This document shows, one piece after another, positions 13,758-25,318 of a stretch of 64,000 nt of DNA (its first letter is position 1; every line of letters begins with the position of its first letter). The stretch spans positions 620,001 through 684,000 of the forward strand of contig NZ_CP139487.1 in NCBI RefSeq assembly GCF_034259205.1, written 5' to 3'. The notes under the pieces were generated by a model. It was given only the letters and a program-made list of their open reading frames with translations, did not search any database and was not told the DNA's origin. This stretch comes from Peredibacter starrii. GTDB taxonomy: Bacteria; Bdellovibrionota; Bacteriovoracia; Bacteriovoracales; Bacteriovoracaceae. The position numbers were made by a program, and so were the translations under genes.

Positions 13758-13793
13758 TTGATAAAGACTATCGTTCTAACAAGTGAAGTGAAA

Positions 13794-14504
13794 ATGAAAA
13801 ACATCGTTTTGATCCTGGTGACACTCATCATGAGTACTGTCGTGTATGCTAATGAAAAATCTCTTTATAACTTTTCATGGCTCGATAACGACAAAGAAAT
13901 CTATGTTCTCCAGAATAGAAAATTTAGAAAAGTCGGTAACGTTTATGTCGGTGCAACTGCTGCTTACAACCTAAGCCAAGATTTCCTTGATGCCTATGGT
14001 GGCACCATTCGTGGGGGATATTTCTTCACTGAGGACTGGGGTGTTGAGCTTATCTACGGTAAGAACACAAATTCTGAAAACGATACAGCGAAAGGTGTAA
14101 AAGAGCAGGGGACTGTTCCTTTTTACCGTCAAATCGATTCATTCATGGGTGCGATGTTGATGTGGTCTCCTTTCTACTCGAAGATCAATACTTTCAATCG
14201 CATTTTCTACTTCGACTGGATGTTTGGTTTTGGTGTGGGAACAATCACGACTAAAGATAACAGAAACAAATTTGATACTGCAGCGGCAAACACAAATGCT
14301 CTAACCGATGAAAGCCAAACTGGTGCTTTATGGAACACTGGCTTCCGCTTTTATATTAATGAGCACTGGAGTCTTCGTTTGGACCTAACAGGTCAAACTT
14401 ATAAAGCAGATAAGACTAAGAAGGCAGGAACAGGACCAACTTCAACGACGTCTAAGCTTTATAACAATTACGATTTGGGTCTTGGTCTAAACTACGCATT
14501 TTAA
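13794..14504 (+). CDS. Outer-membrane beta-barrel protein of the Glt-like gliding set
   Basis: 236 residues from the ATG at 13794 (MKNIVLILVTLIMSTVVYAN, a signal peptide; the longer frame from 13758 adds a non-signal extension). The mature protein alternates polar and aromatic residues in amphipathic strands (VGATAAYNLSQDF, GGTIRGGYFFTEDWGVELIYG, WNTGFRFYINEHWSLRLDLTG) and ends in Phe (GLGLNYAF), the classic outer-membrane barrel terminus recognised by BAM. In Myxococcus, small barrel proteins (GltA, GltB, GltH) form the outer-membrane part of the gliding apparatus. Position at the head of a TPR/FHA operon supports that role here. Which Glt protein it matches cannot be decided by eye. Confidence 0.75.
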   Translation: MKNIVLILVTLIMSTVVYANEKSLYNFSWLDNDKEIYVLQNRKFRKVGNVYVGATAAYNLSQDFLDAYGGTIRGGYFFTEDWGVELIYGKNTNSENDTAKGVKEQGTVPFYRQIDSFMGAMLMWSPFYSKINTFNRIFYFDWMFGFGVGTITTKDNRNKFDTAAANTNALTDESQTGALWNTGFRFYINEHWSLRLDLTGQTYKADKTKKAGTGPTSTTSKLYNNYDLGLGLNYAF

Positions 14505-14519
14505 GAAAGGAGAACACGG

Positions 14520-15929
14520 ATGTTCTCGAAAATATTATTAGCTACAGCAATTCTTATTCCCTCTGCCTGGGCCTCTTATGAATCAGCGGCCAGAAACTAT
14601 GGCAAGGGAACTATATCTTTAAGTGGTTACCGCCGCACAATTCTTGAATTGGTGGATGGTGGTTACTACTATTCAGTAGTTCCTTGGATGAAAGACTACA
14701 TCGTGAAAACTGATCGTACTCTAGATTCTGAGATGGAAGGGGCACTGGATAAAATGCTTTACGCTACTGGGGTGAAGCCATTTGAATCTCTGCCTGAAAA
14801 TATCCTTCGTCGTTCTCGCTCGGGAAATATTCGTTATATCCTGGCCAAGCGTTTGATGAAGCAAGGAAAACATCAGGAAGCACTTAATGAATTAAATGGC
14901 ATTAGTCCTGATCATTCTGCATTTCCGTTTGTGGCCAATCTTCGTGGTGTTATTTACTCACTGTTAAATGATCATAAAGACGCTGAAACTCAGTTCAAAG
15001 ATTGCGTAAATGCCTCTGAAAAAAGAATGGGGAAGGCGGAATCAAATACTCAGCGTGATCAACTTGAGATTAACCGTGATTATTGTGTGGCCGGTATTGC
15101 ACGAGTTCAATACGCCCAGGCCGATTACAAGAAGGCCGAGCTCAGCTACCTGGATATCGCAAAAGACTCATTTGTATGGCCGGAAATTCTCTTTGAAGAG
15201 GCATGGAACAGCTATTATCTGAGTAACTACAACCGCACATTGGGAAAACTTGTTTCATATAAAGCTCCTGTTTTTGACTTCATCTTTAAACCTGAGACTG
15301 AAGTGCTTAAGGCCCTGACTTATATGAAGATGTGTCTTTATGAAGATGCCAAGAAGACTGCGGACGACTTTTATAATGAACTGTTAAATCCTTCACGCGA
15401 TCTAAGAACTTTCCTTCTCTCAAAAGGAAAGGACTATCGTTACTACTACACCCTTATGGCCGATCATGAGAGCAATAAACCAGCTCCTCTTCCGATCGTT
15501 GACCATATTCTTAAATCAATTCGTAAAGATGCTGCTTATCGTGAAATGAAAAGTTCACTCACTGCTGCGATCGGAGAATACAACCTTCTCCGCAAACATT
15601 CAGGCAGTAGCATGCAGGCAAACCTCGTAAAAAACGTAAAGACATTGGCGGATGAGTACAGAACAACTCTGGGCGCTTATGTAAGAGCCGGATTAGTTTC
15701 TAAATACTCCGAGCTCTACACTGCTTTCCAAGGGATGAGCTACATCAAACTTGAGGTTCTGGCACAAAGAAAAGAGCGTCTTTATCAATCTGATACAGTT
15801 GTTAACAAAAAACGCGGTGATGTGAAGTACATCGAGCGTAATGATAAACAGTACTTCTGGAACTTCAATGGTGAGTTCTGGGCAGATGAATTGGGTGATT
15901 ACGTATTCGCCTTGAGGTCTGAATGTTAA
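14520..15929 (+). CDS. GltC-like TPR exported protein
   Basis: 469 residues with a signal peptide (MFSKILLATAILIPSAWAS). Helical repeats of TPR type are visible around residues 110-270 (for example IRYILAKRLMKQGKHQEALNEL, then LRGVIYSLLNDHKDAETQFKDC). The C-terminal end has a distinct aromatic motif, YFWNFNGEFWADELGDYV, followed by a terminal Cys two residues later in SEC. I associate this ending with the GltC-type TPR proteins of the myxobacterial gliding complex, but that is from memory. It follows the barrel gene by 15 bases, with AAAGGAG before the ATG, and overlaps the next TPR gene by seven bases. A periplasmic scaffold linked to the outer-membrane barrels is the likely role. Confidence 0.7.
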   Translation: MFSKILLATAILIPSAWASYESAARNYGKGTISLSGYRRTILELVDGGYYYSVVPWMKDYIVKTDRTLDSEMEGALDKMLYATGVKPFESLPENILRRSRSGNIRYILAKRLMKQGKHQEALNELNGISPDHSAFPFVANLRGVIYSLLNDHKDAETQFKDCVNASEKRMGKAESNTQRDQLEINRDYCVAGIARVQYAQADYKKAELSYLDIAKDSFVWPEILFEEAWNSYYLSNYNRTLGKLVSYKAPVFDFIFKPETEVLKALTYMKMCLYEDAKKTADDFYNELLNPSRDLRTFLLSKGKDYRYYYTLMADHESNKPAPLPIVDHILKSIRKDAAYREMKSSLTAAIGEYNLLRKHSGSSMQANLVKNVKTLADEYRTTLGAYVRAGLVSKYSELYTAFQGMSYIKLEVLAQRKERLYQSDTVVNKKRGDVKYIERNDKQYFWNFNGEFWADELGDYVFALRSEC

Positions 15930-18793
15930 AGTATCTATTACTATCTGTACTAATTGCGAACTCGGTTTGGGGTGCGAAGCTTACCCTGGATGAGCGCCGT
16001 AAAAAGATTCTTTCGATTGTAGATGAGGAGCTTTCAGAAGTATCTCGTCTGGCAAAGCAGCAGGACTTTAAGTCTCCAGATACACTTCTTCGTTTGTCTG
16101 AATTAAATCTGGAGAAGGCCCGTCTTTGGAGAGAGGCCGAGAACGAACAGTATTTAAATATTCCGGTCGAAGAAAGAAGAAATCTTAGTAAGAAAGAGTA
16201 TTTCAATAACTCCAATAAGTATTTTGATGCTGCTAACGATGCTGGTCTAGTTGTCGTGAAGCGATTCCCTAAGTATAAGGGGATTGGAGAAGTTTATTAC
16301 ATCCTGGCGTACAACTATAAAGAACTTGGAAATAACGACCTTGCTCAAAAGTACTTTAAACTCGCCTCAAAGGATGCTCCTAAAGATTCTAAAGTTGGAT
16401 TGAAATCCAAGCTTGCTCTGGCCGATTATTATTACAATGCAAATAAATTTAAAGAGGCGATTCCTCTCTATGAAGCATCAATTAATAAGATGGATGAGAA
16501 GTGGTGGACCAAAGACGCATTCAATCTTGCCTGGTCTTACTATCGTGTAAAAAACTACGATCGCGCTATCAATCTGATGAAAGAAGTTCATAAGAAGAGT
16601 GGCGGAAAATACATTGATATGCGCAATATGGTTGAGCGTGATATCGGTATTTTCTACATTGATGCTGGTCGCATGAATGATGCCATTAACTTCTATGAAG
16701 GTCTTGGCATTAACTACACTGAACAATTTGTAAAAATCGCCAACTCAATTGTGACCCAAGGCCGTTTTGCTCAAGCTGAAACTCTGCTTAAACAAGCAGC
16801 TAAGAATGAGAAAAACCGTGATAAGCGAGTTGAGATTCTAATCGCTCAATTAAATCTCTTTGATAAATTCAATAAGGTCTCAGAACACCTGGAAGTTTGT
16901 AAAGAGTTGGTGGCCCTTCACCTGAAGCAACCTCTTAATACGGATGACTTCAATAAATTAGTTTTCCATGTGAATAAGAAGGCGGCCGAGCTTCAGAAAG
17001 CAACTGCCTCTGATATTTATAAGAATGTACCGAAGGTTCAGAAGCAGAAGTCTCAAGAGGCGATTGCATACTTTGAACTGTCGGCACAGCTTTCTCCCGG
17101 TCAGAAAGCGGAGAAGATTTTCTTCCAAGGTGAGACTGCTTATGCCGCAAGAAATTACAGCAAGGCCATTGGTCTTTATATCACTTCCTTTGATGCTGCT
17201 CGTGCCAATAATGACAAGAAGATCATGAACCAAAGTTTGGAAGGTATGCTTTCCTCTCTTGGGCAAAAGAATCTAAGTCCAAAAGTTGCGGAAAAAAATT
17301 ATGTGCCGGTTTATACCCGTTATTTAAGTTTTGATTCCAAAAGCGAACGCGCAAATTCAATTTACGTGAAACTTTTCAATGCCCAGTTCGATGGCAAAGA
17401 TCTGGCCGGGGCCGAGAAAACCATGGCGGATTTCGCGAAGAACTTTCCGAAAGATTATAAGACTCAGGAAGGGATGCTTGCGAAGGTCATGGAAGAACAC
17501 CGAAAGAATAAAAACTACTCAGCAGTTAAAGGCTACGTAGGAAGAATTAATGACGGTGAATTCAAAATTTCTAAGAAGTATGCAGATGCCCTTAGAAGTT
17601 TAATGACAAAGATTCAAATTGAAGGTGTCCAGCAATCTCTTGAAAAAGGGGACAAAGCCGTGGCGCTCAAAGGTTATCACCAGATTTATGAATCAGATGA
17701 GAGTACACCGAAGGCGAAGGTCAATGCGGCCTACAACCTTTCGGCCCTTTATTATGAAATGGGGAACTCTAATCAAAGTTACGAATGGTCCGTTATTGCA
17801 ATTAGAGATATGGACGTAGCAGATGTAAATAAATTTGCTGATTCATTCCTAAGTATCGCTTCTGGCCTGTTTCTTCGTCAGGAATTTAATCGTTCGGCCG
17901 ATCTTTCATTCAGAATGGTGGCAAAACTTTGTAAGGAGAATTCTTCAAACAAGGTTGTTGCTTATAAAAATGCTGCCTTTATTGCCCTGGCCAATAATGA
18001 CATCAATAAGGCCCTTGAAGTTCGTGACTTTGGAAAGCAGTGTTCAATTTCTGATGCCGCGATTGCCGAAGTCTCATTTGAAATTCTAAAAGATCTGGCG
18101 AAGGCACGTCGCTGGGAGGCCTATGAGAAGTTGATCGCGGAGCTAGAGACAAATTCTAAAAACTTCCCTCAACTAATTAAGCCCCTTGAAGATCTTCGTA
18201 GAGAATATTTGGGTATTGGAAATAATGAAGAGGCGAGACAAGCTGCCGAAAAGCAAAACCGTTTCTACCAGTTGGCCAAGTCTCAAAAGCTGGACATCCC
18301 GGTTGAGGCCCTGGACCTTATGGCCGAGAAAATGCTCGCAAGTGTTCAGGATAAAAAACAACGACTTGATCAGATTCAACTTCGTTTTCCAGAAGCTGAA
18401 TTTAATAGCGCCGTTAAATCTAAGCTTCAGCTCCTTGATCAGATGACTTCTGATGTTAATAACATCCAAAAAATCGGATCAGGTAAGGGAATCGTCGAGG
18501 CCTATAAATACGTCATTGATGCCTATGAATCTTTTGGTACTGAGCTTAAAAACTTCACTCCGGAAGGCAAGGCCCCAGAGTATGTAGCAAGTTTTAAGAA
18601 GGCCATGGCCGAAGTTCACGGTCCAATTCTTGCCAATGCCAGAAAGCAGCGTTCTGAAGTGAAGAAACTTATCTCTGATAATAAAATCCTGAGCTTCTCA
18701 AACTACGCTGTTCTTTATTCTGAACTTGAAAGTAACAAGCGCTTTCTTACTGAGAAAGAAGCAGTCCTCATGGAAAGAGGAGGTCGCCAATGA
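15923..18793 (+). CDS. Large periplasmic TPR protein of the Agl/Glt gliding set
   Basis: 956 residues with a short signal peptide (MLKYLLLSVLIANSVWGAK). The chain is a series of helical repeats with TPR spacing, for example YYILAYNYKELGNNDLAQKY, ADYYYNANKFKEAIPLYEAS, LAWSYYRVKNYDRAINLMKE and GETAYAARNYSKAIGLYITS, through most of the sequence. Myxococcus gliding clusters encode comparable large TPR proteins (AglT/PglI group). The start overlaps the previous gene by seven bases and the stop overlaps the next start by four, so the whole set is translationally coupled. It probably acts as a periplasmic assembly platform; no catalytic site is visible. Confidence 0.7.
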   Translation: MLKYLLLSVLIANSVWGAKLTLDERRKKILSIVDEELSEVSRLAKQQDFKSPDTLLRLSELNLEKARLWREAENEQYLNIPVEERRNLSKKEYFNNSNKYFDAANDAGLVVVKRFPKYKGIGEVYYILAYNYKELGNNDLAQKYFKLASKDAPKDSKVGLKSKLALADYYYNANKFKEAIPLYEASINKMDEKWWTKDAFNLAWSYYRVKNYDRAINLMKEVHKKSGGKYIDMRNMVERDIGIFYIDAGRMNDAINFYEGLGINYTEQFVKIANSIVTQGRFAQAETLLKQAAKNEKNRDKRVEILIAQLNLFDKFNKVSEHLEVCKELVALHLKQPLNTDDFNKLVFHVNKKAAELQKATASDIYKNVPKVQKQKSQEAIAYFELSAQLSPGQKAEKIFFQGETAYAARNYSKAIGLYITSFDAARANNDKKIMNQSLEGMLSSLGQKNLSPKVAEKNYVPVYTRYLSFDSKSERANSIYVKLFNAQFDGKDLAGAEKTMADFAKNFPKDYKTQEGMLAKVMEEHRKNKNYSAVKGYVGRINDGEFKISKKYADALRSLMTKIQIEGVQQSLEKGDKAVALKGYHQIYESDESTPKAKVNAAYNLSALYYEMGNSNQSYEWSVIAIRDMDVADVNKFADSFLSIASGLFLRQEFNRSADLSFRMVAKLCKENSSNKVVAYKNAAFIALANNDINKALEVRDFGKQCSISDAAIAEVSFEILKDLAKARRWEAYEKLIAELETNSKNFPQLIKPLEDLRREYLGIGNNEEARQAAEKQNRFYQLAKSQKLDIPVEALDLMAEKMLASVQDKKQRLDQIQLRFPEAEFNSAVKSKLQLLDQMTSDVNNIQKIGSGKGIVEAYKYVIDAYESFGTELKNFTPEGKAPEYVASFKKAMAEVHGPILANARKQRSEVKKLISDNKILSFSNYAVLYSELESNKRFLTEKEAVLMERGGRQ

Positions 18794-19680
18794 AATTAAT
18801 TCTTCTGCCACTTTTACTTATTGCGGCCTGTTCGACTACGAAAGAAAAAGCACCGACGAGTGCTCCGGCCAACGTAAGTAATGAGGCCTTTAAAAAAGAG
18901 AAACCACTCTCGAATTCGGAAATCTCGGATTATTACCAAGGCAACGCAAAGTCCCTTAATCCGGCCCTATTAGATGAGACTTTGGATCGCATGACTCCGG
19001 AAGAGCTTGCAAAGCTAAATGTTGCAGCAGATCCATTAATGGATATTTCTGTTCGTTGTGGTCAGCGAGATTTCGAAGGAGCTTTTGCCATTGCTGGTAA
19101 GAACTTCAATAAGTATCAAAAAGTGGCGCAGTATTGGAACCTTGTGGCCAACTGTCACTTGAATCAGGGCTCACATCGTAAAGCACTTCTTTTTTATAAC
19201 AAAGCTCTGGAAGTAACTCCAAACTACGTTCCGGCCCTAAATAACATCGGCGTTCTTTACTCTCGTCAGGGTCTGGATCAAAAGGCGTTGGTTGCCTTTG
19301 AACGCGCCAATAAGCAGTCAAAATTTTCAAAGACTCCAAGATACAACTTGGCGAAGCTTTATCTTACTTATGGTCTAGCAGAGCAAGCGCAGCCTCTTTT
19401 TTTAAGTCTTTTGAATGGATCGCCAAAAGACGTGGATATTCTGAACGCAGTTGGATCAACTTACTTTTTAATGTCTGATTACAACCGCGCTCTCAGTTAC
19501 TATCAGCAGATTCCGCGTTCTGAATGGGACCGCGCTGAAATTGGATTGAACGTTGCTTACACTTATAAAAAAGTCGGTAAAGCGGCCGAGGCCCAGAAAA
19601 TATTTTCTGGCATTAAGGATCCTTCGAGCGCCAATCTTCGCCGCTACTATTCGGCGATTGAATCACAATTAGGAGAATAG
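18790..19680 (+). CDS. TPR lipoprotein, GltE/AglT-like
   Basis: 296 residues. MKLILLPLLLIAACSTTKEK is a lipoprotein signal with lipobox IAAC; Ser at +2 of the mature protein suggests the outer membrane by the E. coli rule. At least three canonical TPRs lie at residues about 115-270 (YWNLVANCHLNQGSHRKALL, ALNNIGVLYSRQGLDQKALV, ILNAVGSTYFLMSDYNRALS). GltE of Myxococcus is a TPR lipoprotein needed for gliding. The ATG overlaps the upstream stop (ATGA) directly after an AGAGGAGG sequence. It likely anchors the periplasmic TPR proteins to the outer membrane. Confidence 0.72.
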   Translation: MKLILLPLLLIAACSTTKEKAPTSAPANVSNEAFKKEKPLSNSEISDYYQGNAKSLNPALLDETLDRMTPEELAKLNVAADPLMDISVRCGQRDFEGAFAIAGKNFNKYQKVAQYWNLVANCHLNQGSHRKALLFYNKALEVTPNYVPALNNIGVLYSRQGLDQKALVAFERANKQSKFSKTPRYNLAKLYLTYGLAEQAQPLFLSLLNGSPKDVDILNAVGSTYFLMSDYNRALSYYQQIPRSEWDRAEIGLNVAYTYKKVGKAAEAQKIFSGIKDPSSANLRRYYSAIESQLGE

Positions 19681-19681
19681 G

Positions 19682-19933
19682 ATGAAAATCATAGCAGCAA
19701 CTTTATTTTTCATTCTTTCAGGAACGGTTTTGGCCCAAAATAAACCAAACGTTCGTTATGAATATAAAAAATTCGAAAAGTTTGATTTCGAAGAAATTGG
19801 AGTAGAAGGAGAGGCCGGCGCGCCTGGTGATATCTCTATTTCTCCAAGACTAAGAAAAGAATTTAAGAACAAGCTTCCTGAAAGAGCAAATTTTAACAAA
19901 GAAATGAAAAAAGCCGTAGAAGGCATTCGCTAG
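19682..19933 (+). CDS. Small exported protein in the Glt-like operon, 83 aa
   Basis: The protein begins MKIIAATLFFILSGTVLAQ, a clean signal peptide, leaving about 64 charged residues (YEYKKFEKFDFEEIGVEGE, then LRKEFKNKLPERANFNKEMK). It starts one base after the previous stop, behind AGGAGAATAG. Its stop region contributes the AGGGG that precedes the GTG of the FHA gene. The alternating acidic and basic stretches suggest a periplasmic adaptor or linker peptide. A comparison with small Glt proteins such as GltF is tempting from position only; I cannot confirm homology. Confidence 0.7.
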   Translation: MKIIAATLFFILSGTVLAQNKPNVRYEYKKFEKFDFEEIGVEGEAGAPGDISISPRLRKEFKNKLPERANFNKEMKKAVEGIR

Positions 19934-19942
19934 GGGACATTT

Positions 19943-21961
19943 GTGCAAGTAGAGAAAAATAAACAGCCAAAGATGTTCGAAGTACGCGCCACCAACCCAG
20001 CTCATAAAACGAAAGGGGGAGTGTTCGGAAAAGGACGTTTCCTCTTAGGAAGAAGTGAAAGCTGTGACCTCATTGTAAACAGCGAGGCAGTTTCCGCGGT
20101 CCATGCTGTGCTTGAAGTGTTTGAAGACAAGGCCATCATTTATGATATGAATTCCACGAACGGAACCTATGTGAATGATGCGAAAGTCATCGTTAAAGAA
20201 TTCAGGATTGGTGATACCTTCCGCCTGGCCGACATTGAATTCACTTATCAAAACTATGTAGTTTCAGAGGCGCTTCCTCCCGTGCTTGATACACTGGAAC
20301 CAGCACTTGGTGAGGCATCGGTTAAACTTCCGCCTGAGCTACCTTCTACTCCGAAGGCCCTGCCGAAAGCGGCACCTGCAGTTTCATCACATATGCCTTC
20401 AATCGTTTATCCACTTGCCGCTGATCCAAAAGCGGAATTCAGTGAATATATTTTTGAAGATAAGGACGATCTTTATCCTATCTTCAAATACGAGGCCTCA
20501 AAACAAGCAGTCGAAGTCATCATCCTTCATAATGACCAGGTGTTCAGTGTTGATTACTTCCCAGAAGGTCGTAATACTTATTTCATCACTGGCGTCCTGT
20601 CTAAAAAAGACGAGATCGAATTTCCTTATCTTAATAAAAATGAAAAGTTTCCTTTCGTCGATGTTAGAGGCGGAAGTGCTACTGTTCATACACTACCTGG
20701 TTTTGGAGTTTTTCTACTTAGTGACAAAAAGAAAGACACTGGTCACGTAGGTGCGAGCATTGAACTTTCTGGTCAGGACCTGGTTCGCTTACAAAAAGAT
20801 CACCTTCAAATTTTTGTGAGAAATGTGGCCGCTCCTCCTAAGATTGCACATGCTCCAATTCTTAAACGTGATCCAGAATTCAGAAAATATCTGGCTCTGT
20901 TTATGCTTCTGGCCGGTCTTTTCATCGTGTCTTTGAACGTGATTGAAGTTCCGGAAGATGATAAGAAAGATGAATTGGCGCCTGAAAGACTTGCGACCAT
21001 CCTTTACAAGCAACCTCTAACGGTTTCTAAGAACGTTGCAGTTGAAAAAACCGAAACTGCTCCTAAGCAGGTGCAAAAGGCCCCTGATAAGGTCGCCGTT
21101 GAAAAGACAGCAACGACCGAGAAAAAACCTGATGTTAAGAAGCCGGATGTTGTAACTACTAAAGAGCAAAACAAAAAGCCTGATCCGGGCAAAAAAACCG
21201 CGACTGAAAAGAAAGTAGTAAAGCAGGGGACGACTCCGGTAACTAAGCCTTCAAATAAGAAGTTTGATACACCGGTTGCGAAATCAACCACGACTACTTC
21301 AAGTGCAAAAGCACCGACTGCTTATTCACAACTTGAAGTAAAAACTGCGGGCCACGTTGAAGTTTATAAATCAGCAGATTTCTCAAGTTCAGTTAGTACA
21401 TTGGTGGCAAAGGGTGGATCGCTATCTGGAGTTAAAACAGTGGGCGCTTCAGGCTCAGGTTCTAATGCTGGACAAATCGGTGCAGCATCTGGAGTTGTTG
21501 GAGGAAGTGGTAGTGTTAAAACTTCCAGCATGACTACCAATCAAGGAAGTCTCGTTGGTGCTACAACAGGCGTTCTGGGTGAATCAAAAGGTGCTGAAGG
21601 TCTTTCTGCTAAACGTGAAATTTACACTGCAGGAATTCCTGGTGAAACTGTTGTTCTAGGTTCAATGGACCCGGACGTTATCAGAAGAATTCTGATCGAA
21701 CACCTTCCGCAATTTCGTTATTGTTATCAGCAAGAGATTGAAAGAAGAGGTTCAGAGGTCTTTGGTGTTGTAAAACTTAACTTTGTCATCGGAGCTTCCG
21801 GCCACGTTTCAAAGGCCGGTACTGATGGAAGTTCAGGGTTACCAGCAGATGTTAGTAAGTGTGTTGTGAATGTCCTTCGAGGAATCACCTTCCCGGAACC
21901 AATGGGCGGCGGTACGGTAGAGGTAAAACAGCCAATGAACTTCCAGACCAAGAAGATGTAA
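19943..21961 (+). CDS. GltG-like FHA and TonB-like trans-envelope protein
   Basis: 672 residues in four parts. Residues about 25-105 are a cytoplasmic FHA phospho-threonine-binding domain (GRFLLGRSESCDLIV, then VHAVLEV and NSTNGTYVND). A single transmembrane helix lies near 315-336 (YLALFMLLAGLFIVSLNVI). A Lys/Pro/Thr-rich periplasmic stretch follows (about 345-455, with KKPDVKKPD-type segments), then a Gly/Ser-rich stretch, and a C-terminal domain at about 574-672 with the AgmX/PglI tail pattern (LPQFRYCYQQEI, GVVKLNFVIGASGHV, CVVNVLRGITFPEP). GltG of Myxococcus has the same order and links the cytoplasm to the outer membrane. The start is a GTG behind AGGGG; an ATG at 19973 is the alternative. 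It ends the operon before two terminators. Confidence 0.82.
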   Translation: MQVEKNKQPKMFEVRATNPAHKTKGGVFGKGRFLLGRSESCDLIVNSEAVSAVHAVLEVFEDKAIIYDMNSTNGTYVNDAKVIVKEFRIGDTFRLADIEFTYQNYVVSEALPPVLDTLEPALGEASVKLPPELPSTPKALPKAAPAVSSHMPSIVYPLAADPKAEFSEYIFEDKDDLYPIFKYEASKQAVEVIILHNDQVFSVDYFPEGRNTYFITGVLSKKDEIEFPYLNKNEKFPFVDVRGGSATVHTLPGFGVFLLSDKKKDTGHVGASIELSGQDLVRLQKDHLQIFVRNVAAPPKIAHAPILKRDPEFRKYLALFMLLAGLFIVSLNVIEVPEDDKKDELAPERLATILYKQPLTVSKNVAVEKTETAPKQVQKAPDKVAVEKTATTEKKPDVKKPDVVTTKEQNKKPDPGKKTATEKKVVKQGTTPVTKPSNKKFDTPVAKSTTTTSSAKAPTAYSQLEVKTAGHVEVYKSADFSSSVSTLVAKGGSLSGVKTVGASGSGSNAGQIGAASGVVGGSGSVKTSSMTTNQGSLVGATTGVLGESKGAEGLSAKREIYTAGIPGETVVLGSMDPDVIRRILIEHLPQFRYCYQQEIERRGSEVFGVVKLNFVIGASGHVSKAGTDGSSGLPADVSKCVVNVLRGITFPEPMGGGTVEVKQPMNFQTKKM

Positions 21962-21970
21962 TAAATGACA

Positions 21971-21995
21971 AAGGACCCGTAAGGGTCCTTTTTTT
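21971..21995 (+). terminator. Rho-independent terminator of the glt-like operon
   Basis: An eight-base stem AAGGACCC/GGGTCCTT with loop GTAA is followed by a run of T. It starts ten bases after the gltG-like stop. Confidence 0.9.
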
Positions 21996-22000
21996 ATGCC

Positions 22001-22031
22001 AAAAAAAAGGGACCATCGCTGGTCCCTTTTT
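22001..22031. terminator. Bidirectional terminator between glt and agl operons
   Basis: Stem GGGACC/GGTCCC with loop ATCGCT is preceded by eight A and followed by five T, so it has a U-run in both orientations. It backs up the plus-strand terminator just upstream and ends the minus-strand motor operon. Confidence 0.85.
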
Positions 22032-22055
22032 CATTTGTTCAGTTGGAATAGAGAG

Positions 22056-22568
22056 TTAATTACCTTGAGTTAAAACCACAAATTTAAACTCTTTAAAACC
22101 GGCAGCAGCACAGGTGTACATAACTCGTTTCAGGTAAGAGTATTTAAGTGACTTATCAACGACCAGGTTGGCAATCCCTGAGAACTTCTTGGCCTGTGGC
22201 GAGAGTTTCTCAGATTGCTTAATCGTTTCTTTGATTTTGACTAACTCATTATACAGAGGAACAATTCTTCGTCCGCCTTCATCAAATAACTGATCGTCTG
22301 GAATTTCTGTGTTCACTACTTCTGTATCGTCCACCCAAATCTGAGTTTTTGATACCTGCACATTCACACCGAAGTTATTTAAGGTCTCAGATGAAGAACG
22401 AGGGAGTTCAATTTCTTTCGGAACGTTAATGACCACTCCCGAAGAGTTATAACTTTGAAGAAGGAAAACCAGAAGGATGGTAAGAATATCGAGAAGGGAA
22501 GTGATATCGATATCAAATACCGTCGCTTTCTTTCTTCCTCTGCCAAATCGTGAAGCTCTACGTGCCAT
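22056..22568 (-). CDS. TolR/ExbD-like motor protein, AglS-like
   Basis: 170 residues, the usual ExbD/TolR size. A short cytoplasmic N-terminus is followed by one transmembrane helix, and the membrane-proximal Asp is seen in FDIDITSLLDILTILLVFLL, where the Asp of TSLLDIL is the proton-pathway residue of TolR/ExbD. A periplasmic domain follows. It lies nine bases downstream of a second TolR-like gene and a TolQ-like gene, matching the AglR-AglQ-AglS motor of Myxococcus, which uses proton-motive force to drive gliding complexes. Convergent with the Glt-like operon. AglS versus AglQ is assigned by order only. Confidence 0.82.
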   Translation of the reverse strand: MARRASRFGRGRKKATVFDIDITSLLDILTILLVFLLQSYNSSGVVINVPKEIELPRSSSETLNNFGVNVQVSKTQIWVDDTEVVNTEIPDDQLFDEGGRRIVPLYNELVKIKETIKQSEKLSPQAKKFSGIANLVVDKSLKYSYLKRVMYTCAAAGFKEFKFVVLTQGN

Positions 22569-22576
22569 ACTTCCTC

Positions 22577-23110
22577 TTAAGTCGTTAGATTACTGAAGAT
22601 GATACGGTCGAAAAGATTTTTGATCTTCTCGTCCACGCCTTCTTTATTTGGTTTAAAGATGGCCTCATCGGTTTTGTTTAGCATTCTGACCGCATCCATG
22701 ATTTTGACGATCTCTTCGTAAGGAAGTTCATCTGTCGGCTCAAAGATGATTGAATCTTCATCCACGTGTTGTTTTTTCAAGTCAATTAACGTTGTGTGAA
22801 TATCATCATAATTGAACTGACCATCTGCCTGACGAGTGAACTTCTTCATTTCCTTAGAAGGAATTCCGGTAGAGAGAGTAATGTCATTAGCAGTAACTTT
22901 CATCGTCAATGCTAGTGGCTCTTTGTCTTCTTTCTTGGGCTGTTCTTGATCAGAAACAATTGGAATCGGAGATCCGATTTCATAAATCTTTAAAAAGCTC
23001 GCCGACATCAAAAGAAAGAAAATGAAGATGAAGACCGAGTCCATAATAGGAACCAGGTTCAGCTTCTCATCCGGCTTTTTACGTTTACGGCTGGTAGGTA
23101 CTCTTAGCAT
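22577..23110 (-). CDS. TolR/ExbD-like motor protein, AglQ-like
   Basis: 177 residues. The membrane helix carries the motor Asp in NLVPIMDSVFIFIFFLLMSA (PIMD), preceded by a basic cytoplasmic N-terminus (RKRKKPDEKL) and followed by a periplasmic domain. Two different TolR-like proteins beside one TolQ-like protein is the arrangement of the AglR-Q-S motor and distinguishes it from a plain Tol-Pal locus; no TolA, TolB or Pal gene is present here. Spacing to the TolQ-like gene is ten bases. Confidence 0.82.
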   Translation of the reverse strand: MLRVPTSRKRKKPDEKLNLVPIMDSVFIFIFFLLMSASFLKIYEIGSPIPIVSDQEQPKKEDKEPLALTMKVTANDITLSTGIPSKEMKKFTRQADGQFNYDDIHTTLIDLKKQHVDEDSIIFEPTDELPYEEIVKIMDAVRMLNKTDEAIFKPNKEGVDEKIKNLFDRIIFSNLTT

Positions 23111-23120
23111 ACGCTAATCC

Positions 23121-23762
23121 TTAATCGTCGATGGCTTTTTTAGTTCCAAGAAGATCTTGAAGCTTAACTGCGAACTCATCGATCTCGTTAACGATCTTTT
23201 CCGACTTTGAAGTAAGGAAAGCGTGAATCATCATGATTGTGATTGCTGCTAGAAGACCAAGAGCAGTTGTGTTCATCGCAACTGCAATACCTTTTGCAAG
23301 AACTTCAGCTTTCTGTGTTGGATCCGCTGCAGATACCGCCGAGAATGACTGAATCAGACCCTGAATCGTACCTAATAGACCGAATAGAGTAGAAAGGTTG
23401 GCAGCAAGCTGAAGGTAAGAGAGACGTTGCTCAATTTTTGGAATCACTTCAAGCGCAGTTGCATCGATTGCGTTCTGAACTTGTTCAGTTCCCTGATTGG
23501 CACGCTTAAGACCACTCTTCAAAACTCTTGGTAGAGCAGCTTGTGAGCCTGAACAAACACGGATTGCTCCTTGAATGTCATTCGAAAGAATGTAACGTTG
23601 AAGTTCATTCATGAATGAAGGTCCGTCTACGTCGTAGGTGTAAGAGAGTTTTTTAAATCGTTCGAGTGCTACTGCCAGAGCGAATGCCCACACTGCAAGG
23701 ATCACATACATGAAAACGCCACCCTCTGTGATAAAACGAATGGCCCATTGGATAATTTCCAT
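23121..23762 (-). CDS. TolQ/ExbB-like motor protein, AglR-like
   Basis: 213 residues from the ATG at 23760-23762 (MEIIQWAIRFITEGGVFMYV), which has AAGGGGAAG eight bases ahead; the frame extends six codons further to 23780, but that start lacks a Shine-Dalgarno. Three transmembrane helices are visible: near residues 14-35, and two flanking the MotA/TolQ/ExbB signature region (LSTLFGLLGTIQGLIQSF and AVAMNTTALGLLAAITIMMI). The Thr residues of the second and third helices line the proton path in this family. It is the first gene of the motor operon, and the stator ring it forms would enclose the two TolR-like partners. Confidence 0.87.
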   Translation of the reverse strand: MEIIQWAIRFITEGGVFMYVILAVWAFALAVALERFKKLSYTYDVDGPSFMNELQRYILSNDIQGAIRVCSGSQAALPRVLKSGLKRANQGTEQVQNAIDATALEVIPKIEQRLSYLQLAANLSTLFGLLGTIQGLIQSFSAVSAADPTQKAEVLAKGIAVAMNTTALGLLAAITIMMIHAFLTSKSEKIVNEIDEFAVKLQDLLGTKKAIDD

Positions 23763-23793
23763 AACAACTTCCCCTTCCATGGAAAAATAAAGG

Positions 23794-24334: not shown

Positions 24335-25240
24335 TTAAAAAGTAGTGGTCTTTTTACCGTTGTCATAACCTTCGTAGGTCTCTTCCCAACCTTTGAAAGC
24401 GCGACGAGCATCTTGGATTTCTTCAAGCACCCAGTGGTTTCTCTCGATACCTTTAACATCTCTTGCCTGGATATCATCCGGACGGAACATATACATTGGA
24501 ACCTTCATTAGGTAACAAAGTTTGCTCCACTGGTTTTGTTCCCAGTCTTGGTATTTTTCAACGATAGGGCAGTTACGCTCTTTCGACATCATGAAGAAGC
24601 TCTTCCATTCTTGAATGGGAGTTGGCTTTTGGAAGAATGTTCCATCCATCACGTAGTCTTCACCAGCAATGTTTACTAGAGGAGCAACGTGGAACCACCA
24701 ATCGTATTCATCGATCATCTGAAAACGTTGAGTGAAGAAAATGAACAGCTTTTCAGACTTAATGTTCATTTTAGACCACATATCAAAGGCCCACATGTGA
24801 GCGCGTTTGAAACACTGAGATCTTTTCTTGTCTCCGTCGTTGATCATGCTCTTGAAGACAGTTGTCGCCTTCTCAATAGTCTGAAGATCTGTTGGAGCAA
24901 ATTGACGAAGTTCATTGTAACGGAAATGGTTTAGATCAAGTGTGCGAGTATCAATCTCACCGGCCATAACTGGACGAATGCTATTGATCATGGCCTTGGT
25001 ACCATAAACGGTGAAATCGATTCTCACTACTTTTCCAACTAGTGGGAAAATACGATTCAGGTTCTCATCGCTGTTTTCGGTCTTGTAGATGCGACCATCT
25101 ACACCTGAAAGAACGTTAACAGTTTTGGTTCTGATTGATTCGTGAACGTTGAAGACAGTCGTAATAACGACTTCCGCTCTGGCCTTAGCATTCATAAAGA
25201 GAACGCCAAACGCTAGAGCGACTAAAATTTTAGTAGACAT
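24335..25240 (-). CDS. Probable exported protein-glutamine glutaminase
   Basis: 301 residues from the ATG at 25238-25240 (AGAGGGG ahead; a GTG two codons earlier is the alternative). The signal peptide is MSTKILVALAFGVLFMNAKARA. Residues about 140-210 resemble the protein glutaminase of Chryseobacterium: CFKRAHMWAF for the nucleophile region, WWFHVAPLVN for the His region and YVMDGTFFQKP for the Asp region. In that enzyme the triad is Cys, His, Asp; here the equivalents are Cys143, His184 and Asp199. Such enzymes deamidate protein glutamine side chains to glutamate. The N-terminal 120 residues may be a pro-domain, as in the known enzyme. The target protein is unknown. The match is by motif recall and is not confirmed by search. 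Confidence 0.65.
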   Translation of the reverse strand: MSTKILVALAFGVLFMNAKARAEVVITTVFNVHESIRTKTVNVLSGVDGRIYKTENSDENLNRIFPLVGKVVRIDFTVYGTKAMINSIRPVMAGEIDTRTLDLNHFRYNELRQFAPTDLQTIEKATTVFKSMINDGDKKRSQCFKRAHMWAFDMWSKMNIKSEKLFIFFTQRFQMIDEYDWWFHVAPLVNIAGEDYVMDGTFFQKPTPIQEWKSFFMMSKERNCPIVEKYQDWEQNQWSKLCYLMKVPMYMFRPDDIQARDVKGIERNHWVLEEIQDARRAFKGWEETYEGYDNGKKTTTF

Positions 25241-25318
25241 AGTCACCCCTCTGAATTTGGGGTTTTATAAAAAAACCGGGCCTCGGCTGACTATGTAAGA
25301 ACTACCTTCGGGTAAAAA

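Follow-up and report, generated by a model that had tools for sequence, protein, structure and literature searches.

A compact Agl/Glt-type trans-envelope gene cluster with a convergent motor operon in Peredibacter starrii, and its paralogue in the same genome

Analysis of the window, the 64,000-nucleotide stretch of the P. starrii genome (one contig, 4.15 Mb) considered here, verified nine open reading frames encoding envelope proteins at positions 13794-23762 (hereafter cluster A), in full agreement with the original prediction of a barrel, TPR proteins, a lipoprotein, a small exported protein, an FHA/TM/tail protein, a TolQ and two TolRs. On the plus strand, a structural operon with practically no intergenic space (13794-21961) encodes an outer-membrane beta-barrel, designated GltA-like by its position beside gltC (ORF 13758-14504, with an ATG and signal peptide at 13794; TIGR04565, 117 bits; PF13505), the periplasmic TPR solenoid GltC (14520-15929; NF033756, 118 bits, E 6e-34), a large exported GltD-like TPR protein of 956 aa (15923-18793), a GltE-like TPR lipoprotein with lipobox LLIAAC (18790-19680), the small periplasmic protein GltF/CglF of 83 aa (19682-19933) and the FHA/TM/tail protein GltG (19943-21961; NF033760, 126 bits, E 1.5e-36; tail domain NF033768, 63 bits; FHA domain PF00498). 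Convergent with it, a minus-strand motor operon (23780-22056) encodes an AglR-like TolQ-type motor ring (23121-23780, with an internal ATG at 23762; PF01618, 94 bits) followed by two AglQ/AglS-like TolR-type motor subunits (subunit 1 at 22577-23110, PF02472, 45 bits; subunit 2 at 22056-22568, PF02472, 53 bits).

The two operons are separated by 95 bases carrying two hairpins, as anticipated in the proposal of a double terminator: an intrinsic terminator for the structural operon (21970-21991, hairpin and T run on the plus strand) and another for the motor operon (22004-22031, hairpin and T8 on the minus strand, usable on the plus strand too). The RNA fold predicted for this intergenic region reaches -37 kcal/mol, compared to -20 +/- 3 for shuffled sequences (z -5.6), none of the 200 shuffles being as good. 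Adjoining the motor operon lies a gene for an exported protein with a Gln_deamidase_2 domain (24335-25246; PF18626, 55 bits), perhaps a predatory enzyme. A plasmid search returned no match.

To elucidate the relationship between these structural proteins and the Myxococcus gliding proteins, we compared them with the NCBIfam gliding models, which match GltC and GltG, as well as the 83-aa protein (NF033764, 22.7 bits). The equivalog cut-offs for GltC and GltG are 450 and 650 bits, respectively, and since no match reaches its NCBI equivalog cut-off, GltC, GltE, GltG and CglF of cluster A are distant members of their families. The CglF model covers the 83-aa protein over positions 24-86 of the model (63 of 88; E 7e-5), a call that is weak alone, and the counterpart encoded in the same place in Bdellovibrio bacteriovorus HD100 scores 46 bits. 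The small exported protein, which had been left without a name, is thus probably GltF/CglF, CglF and GltF being the same protein in Myxococcus (PMC4488436). The predicted homology to Glt proteins therefore stood by model for GltC, GltG and GltF, weakly for GltE (NF033758, 21 bits, below stronger generic TPR models), and found no NCBIfam model match for GltD, for which only TPR Pfam families were matched. The architecture, export signals and position of the large TPR protein, encoded between GltC and GltE in related clusters of the same order, and of the TPR lipoprotein are consistent with GltD and GltE. A search of the whole genome with the GltJ model (NF033761) did not find this protein, the best hit being 21 bits over a fragment against a cut-off of 450; GltH, GltI and GltK were not seen within cluster A, and TIGR04565 barrels number one per cluster in this genome.

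Structural predictions with AlphaFold yielded a TPR-like fold for GltC (pLDDT 83), with good confidence except for the conserved tail (residues 428-469), which is of low confidence in the monomer. The final 25 residues rank with the most strongly conserved of the whole protein and include an invariant C-terminal motif, FxGEFWADELGDY..L.SEC, with invariant F449, G451, F453, W454, D456, E457, L458, G459, Y461 and C469. In Myxococcus, GltC is part of a subcomplex with GltA and GltB (PMC4488436), and this tail is therefore a likely docking site for the outer-membrane barrel. GltG is predicted to comprise a cytoplasmic FHA domain, a second beta-rich cytoplasmic domain, a single transmembrane helix spanning residues 311-333, a disordered periplasmic stretch of about 240 residues and, last, a TonB-like tail. 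The structural prediction of the FHA domain was borne out by a structure search, in which it matches solved FHA domains with a Z of about 16; this search was filled by FHA matches and barely sampled the tail or the other beta domain (166-302), the tail being assigned from HMM matches and predicted secondary structure. R32, G36 and H54 of the FHA domain do not vary across 20 relatives, and N70 hardly does, making phosphothreonine binding by this domain plausible.

The proton flow of TolQR and ExbBD systems is tied to an Asp in the TolR helix and two Thr in TolQ. In the alignment, both TolR-like proteins of cluster A retain the transmembrane Asp and the TolQ-like protein retains the two channel Thr. 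In the TolQ tree, which contained no M. xanthus AglRQS sequence, the window TolQ groups with all glt-linked motors, apart from Tol and Exb (100/100). The cluster A motor, with one TolQ and two TolRs, is of the AglRQS type and distinct from Tol-Pal and ExbBD. That the TPR genes are unrelated to this motor, and that the latter is a plain Tol-Pal or ExbBD energiser, the outcome named beforehand as contradicting the gliding-type assignment, is very improbable. The TolQ and TolR models do match, weakly and far under the cut-offs of those families, and there are two TolRs per TolQ in conserved linkage to glt genes. Furthermore, joining the window group to Tol-Pal TolQ is rejected by the AU test (p 4.9e-5), and the genome encodes its own TolQ-TolR-TolA-TolB, ExbB-ExbD and MotA-MotB sets elsewhere. 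There is also a MotA-like protein, adjoining a VWA protein (L173, 2605-4175), that lies outside the Mot, Tol and Exb sets.

We then examined the distribution of cluster A in relatives. The nearest named relatives are Bacteriovoracaceae. The contig scan retained the best 80 loci, which come mainly from this family and include none from M. xanthus, so that myxobacterial membership rests on the NCBIfam models. The gene set and order of cluster A, the mapping of gene order being one of the checks that the original prediction proposed, recur in many other genomes, and cluster A is thus not a chance assembly. This type of cluster is present in nearly all same-genus genomes searched, and a GltC-type protein is encoded, mostly in several copies, in 135 of the 136 Bdellovibrionota genomes that are at least 95% complete, which apparently has not been described before. 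Among the 38 named loci that show the C-D-(E)-F-G order and extend far enough to be informative, the motor lies downstream in convergent orientation in 31 and is colinear in none, the remaining 7 having no motor in the fetched stretch after gltG. The convergent layout is therefore common in the family, though not universal. It is also found in L164 (Bdellovibrionales) and L165, both outside the family clade, and may for this reason be older than the Bacteriovoracaceae.

In some relatives, a small lipoprotein is encoded between gltG and the motor (L055, 3164-3571; L100, 17759-18163; L105, 17582-17965); those of L100 and L105 weakly resemble the GltG tail, and short tail-domain proteins are also encoded elsewhere in the P. 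starrii genome. In another genome (G027, probably Halobacteriovorax marinus SJ), a gene judged by eye to encode a FeoB-like GTPase is inserted at the same place (L047, 16719-18686).

The same genome harbors a second complete nine-gene cluster (cluster B; L045, 1,953,776-1,963,668), encoding on a single strand the barrel, GltC, CglF, TolQ, TolR1, TolR2, GltD, GltE and GltG. Where they align, the proteins of the two clusters share 25-59% identity, and both clusters are complete in most family genomes checked. The TolQ tree (96/95) and the tree of concatenated OMP, GltC, GltD, GltG and CglF sequences (support 100) both define clusters A and B as sister groups within the Bacteriovoracaceae. These trees place inside this family the duplication from which A and B arose. 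Our literature search, in a library with few subscription journals, turned up no study of glt clusters in Bacteriovoracaceae, and the convergent arrangement widespread in the family, the presence of one barrel in each machine and the duplication within the family are apparently new to the literature searched.

The homology and anatomy of cluster A being established, we propose with a probability of about 0.5 that its products form one trans-envelope machine running from the motor through GltG and the periplasmic Glt proteins to the barrel, with gliding as its likeliest use. In the mechanism proposed by homology with Myxococcus, the AglR-type TolQ ring and the two different TolR-type subunits would constitute an inner-membrane motor powered by protons. 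This motor would drive GltG, which would be held by its single transmembrane helix, sense a phosphothreonine signal on the cytoplasmic side with its FHA domain, and span the periplasm with a flexible stretch ending in the TonB-like tail. The tail would meet GltD, GltE and GltF in the periplasm, while GltC would bridge to the single outer-membrane barrel, probably through its invariant C-terminal motif. Cycling of the motor would then carry the outer-membrane part along the cell or around it, most likely for slow surface gliding in search of prey or on prey.

The odds that this machine serves gliding are about even. Elsewhere in the genome, a locus (L175, 833-1923; 329.7-330.8 kb) holds recR, a gene placed where mglB would be expected, and mglA with Gly21 retained, an arrangement reported for B. 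marinus (PMC3983030) and differing from that of B. bacteriovorus. B. bacteriovorus glides, and its aglQ gene Bd1480 is induced on surfaces (PMC9140294); the papers found contain no report of gliding in Bacteriovoracaceae. Against gliding stand the single barrel, the absence of GltJ from the genome and of GltH, GltI and GltK from the cluster, and the fact that the Myxococcus models are matched best by Bd0828-0838 rather than by the Bacteriovoracaceae lineage. Gliding in Myxococcus needs GltH, GltI, GltJ and GltK, as well as both barrels.

The main rival, to which we assign a somewhat lower likelihood, is that cluster A encodes an Agl/Glt envelope motor for prey handling or other envelope work, such as prey attachment or entry, the movement of polymers on the surface, or transport across the outer membrane, whether outward or inward. 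The Nfs copy of this machinery serves spore coat assembly in Myxococcus (PMC3858216, PMC3169522), the copies of B. bacteriovorus are regulated differently, with Bd0412-0420 rising on predation (PMC2797640), and the multiple GltC-type genes of most Bdellovibrionota genomes are more than one motility function needs. Conversely, cluster A has kept the C-D-E-F-G order seen in the candidate gliding locus of the Bd0828 type, and MglA is encoded in the genome. Gliding and prey handling could also be divided between the paralogues, with one of the two clusters (A, or B at 1.954-1.964 Mb) used for gliding and the other for predation. The retention of two complete clusters in most family genomes checked and their status as sister clades are consistent with this tentative scenario, as are the scores of GltG (126 bits in A vs 102 in B) and CglF (22.7 bits vs no match), which bring cluster A nearer to the gliding models; the differences are small, however, and reversed for GltC (118 vs 122 bits). 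Bolder and unlikely is the idea that the Bacteriovoracaceae duplicated the whole machine, cut it to one barrel and specialised the copies for gliding and prey handling, yielding the smallest still-gliding machine of its kind.

Returning to the preferred reading of a gliding-type machine, a 2026 review considers the Bdellovibrio gliding machinery to be without identification so far (PMC13104615). With its nine genes, cluster A is a compact candidate, found almost throughout one predatory family and accompanied by a paralogue in the same cell, which makes both a minimal parts list and any division of labour testable by gene deletion.

Four agl operons have been published for B. bacteriovorus: Bd0412-0420, Bd0828-0838, Bd1473-1483 and Bd2368-2377 (PMC2797640). 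The genome G097, probably that of HD100, presents glt loci at approximately 0.39, 0.78, 1.39 and 2.27 Mb, consistent with the numbering of these operons, and we infer that they correspond to them, with L200 as the agl/glt locus Bd0828-0838 (PMC2797640, PMC3169522). This locus combines, like cluster A, the C-D-E-F-G order and a TolQ-TolR-TolR motor, but its order is barrel-barrel-C-D-E-F-G-TolQ-TolR-TolR, with two barrels and a colinear motor as opposed to the single barrel and inverted motor of the window. Its proteins are also far nearer to the Myxococcus models (GltC 188 vs 118 bits, GltG 234 vs 126, CglF 46 vs 23, GltE 46.5 vs 21). A one-to-one orthology between cluster A and Bd0828-0838 was discarded, because the trees pair A with B and a grouping of A with the Bd0828 type that leaves B out is rejected. 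The HD100 locus corresponding to Bd1473-1483, a locus with a reported biofilm-predation phenotype, encodes a first TolR (L202, 18843-19400) that has an Ala in place of the motor Asp and is possibly an inactive subunit.

The idea of an ancestral core and the existence of Bdellovibrio copies were already published in 2010-2011; Luciano and coworkers (2011) defined the core as gltCDEG and aglRQS, described four Bdellovibrio sets and singled out Bd0828-0838 as the best gliding candidate (PMC3169522). Counterparts of all seven core genes of this system, described for non-gliding bacteria, lie in one region of the window: gltC, gltG and the aglRQS-type genes, joined by TPR genes that take the places of gltD and gltE, an assignment made from their position and their architecture. 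Cluster A, however, adds GltF and a barrel, and belongs to a derived, duplicated lineage. The suggestion that it could approximate the ancestral core machine was consequently abandoned in the form stated, given the second nine-gene cluster, the sister relationship of A and B within the family and the far higher scores of Bd0828-0838. Cluster A is instead a family-specific, slimmed-down variant of an Agl/Glt-type machine.

Compared with the Agl-Glt system of M. xanthus (G1, G2 and M1), GltC, GltG and GltF of cluster A are recognised by model, the GltD-like and GltE-like proteins from their architecture and their place in the operon, and the motor is likewise of the AglRQS type, whereas GltJ was not found in the P. 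starrii genome, GltH, GltI and GltK were not seen in the cluster, and every match falls under its equivalog cut-off. As stated in the original prediction, the Myxococcus genes are scattered, over three loci (PMC3169522), while those of the window occupy one place, where their order, A-C / D-E-F-G / R-Q-S, is the internal order of Myxococcus G2, G1 and M1 in series (PMC3169522, Table 1).
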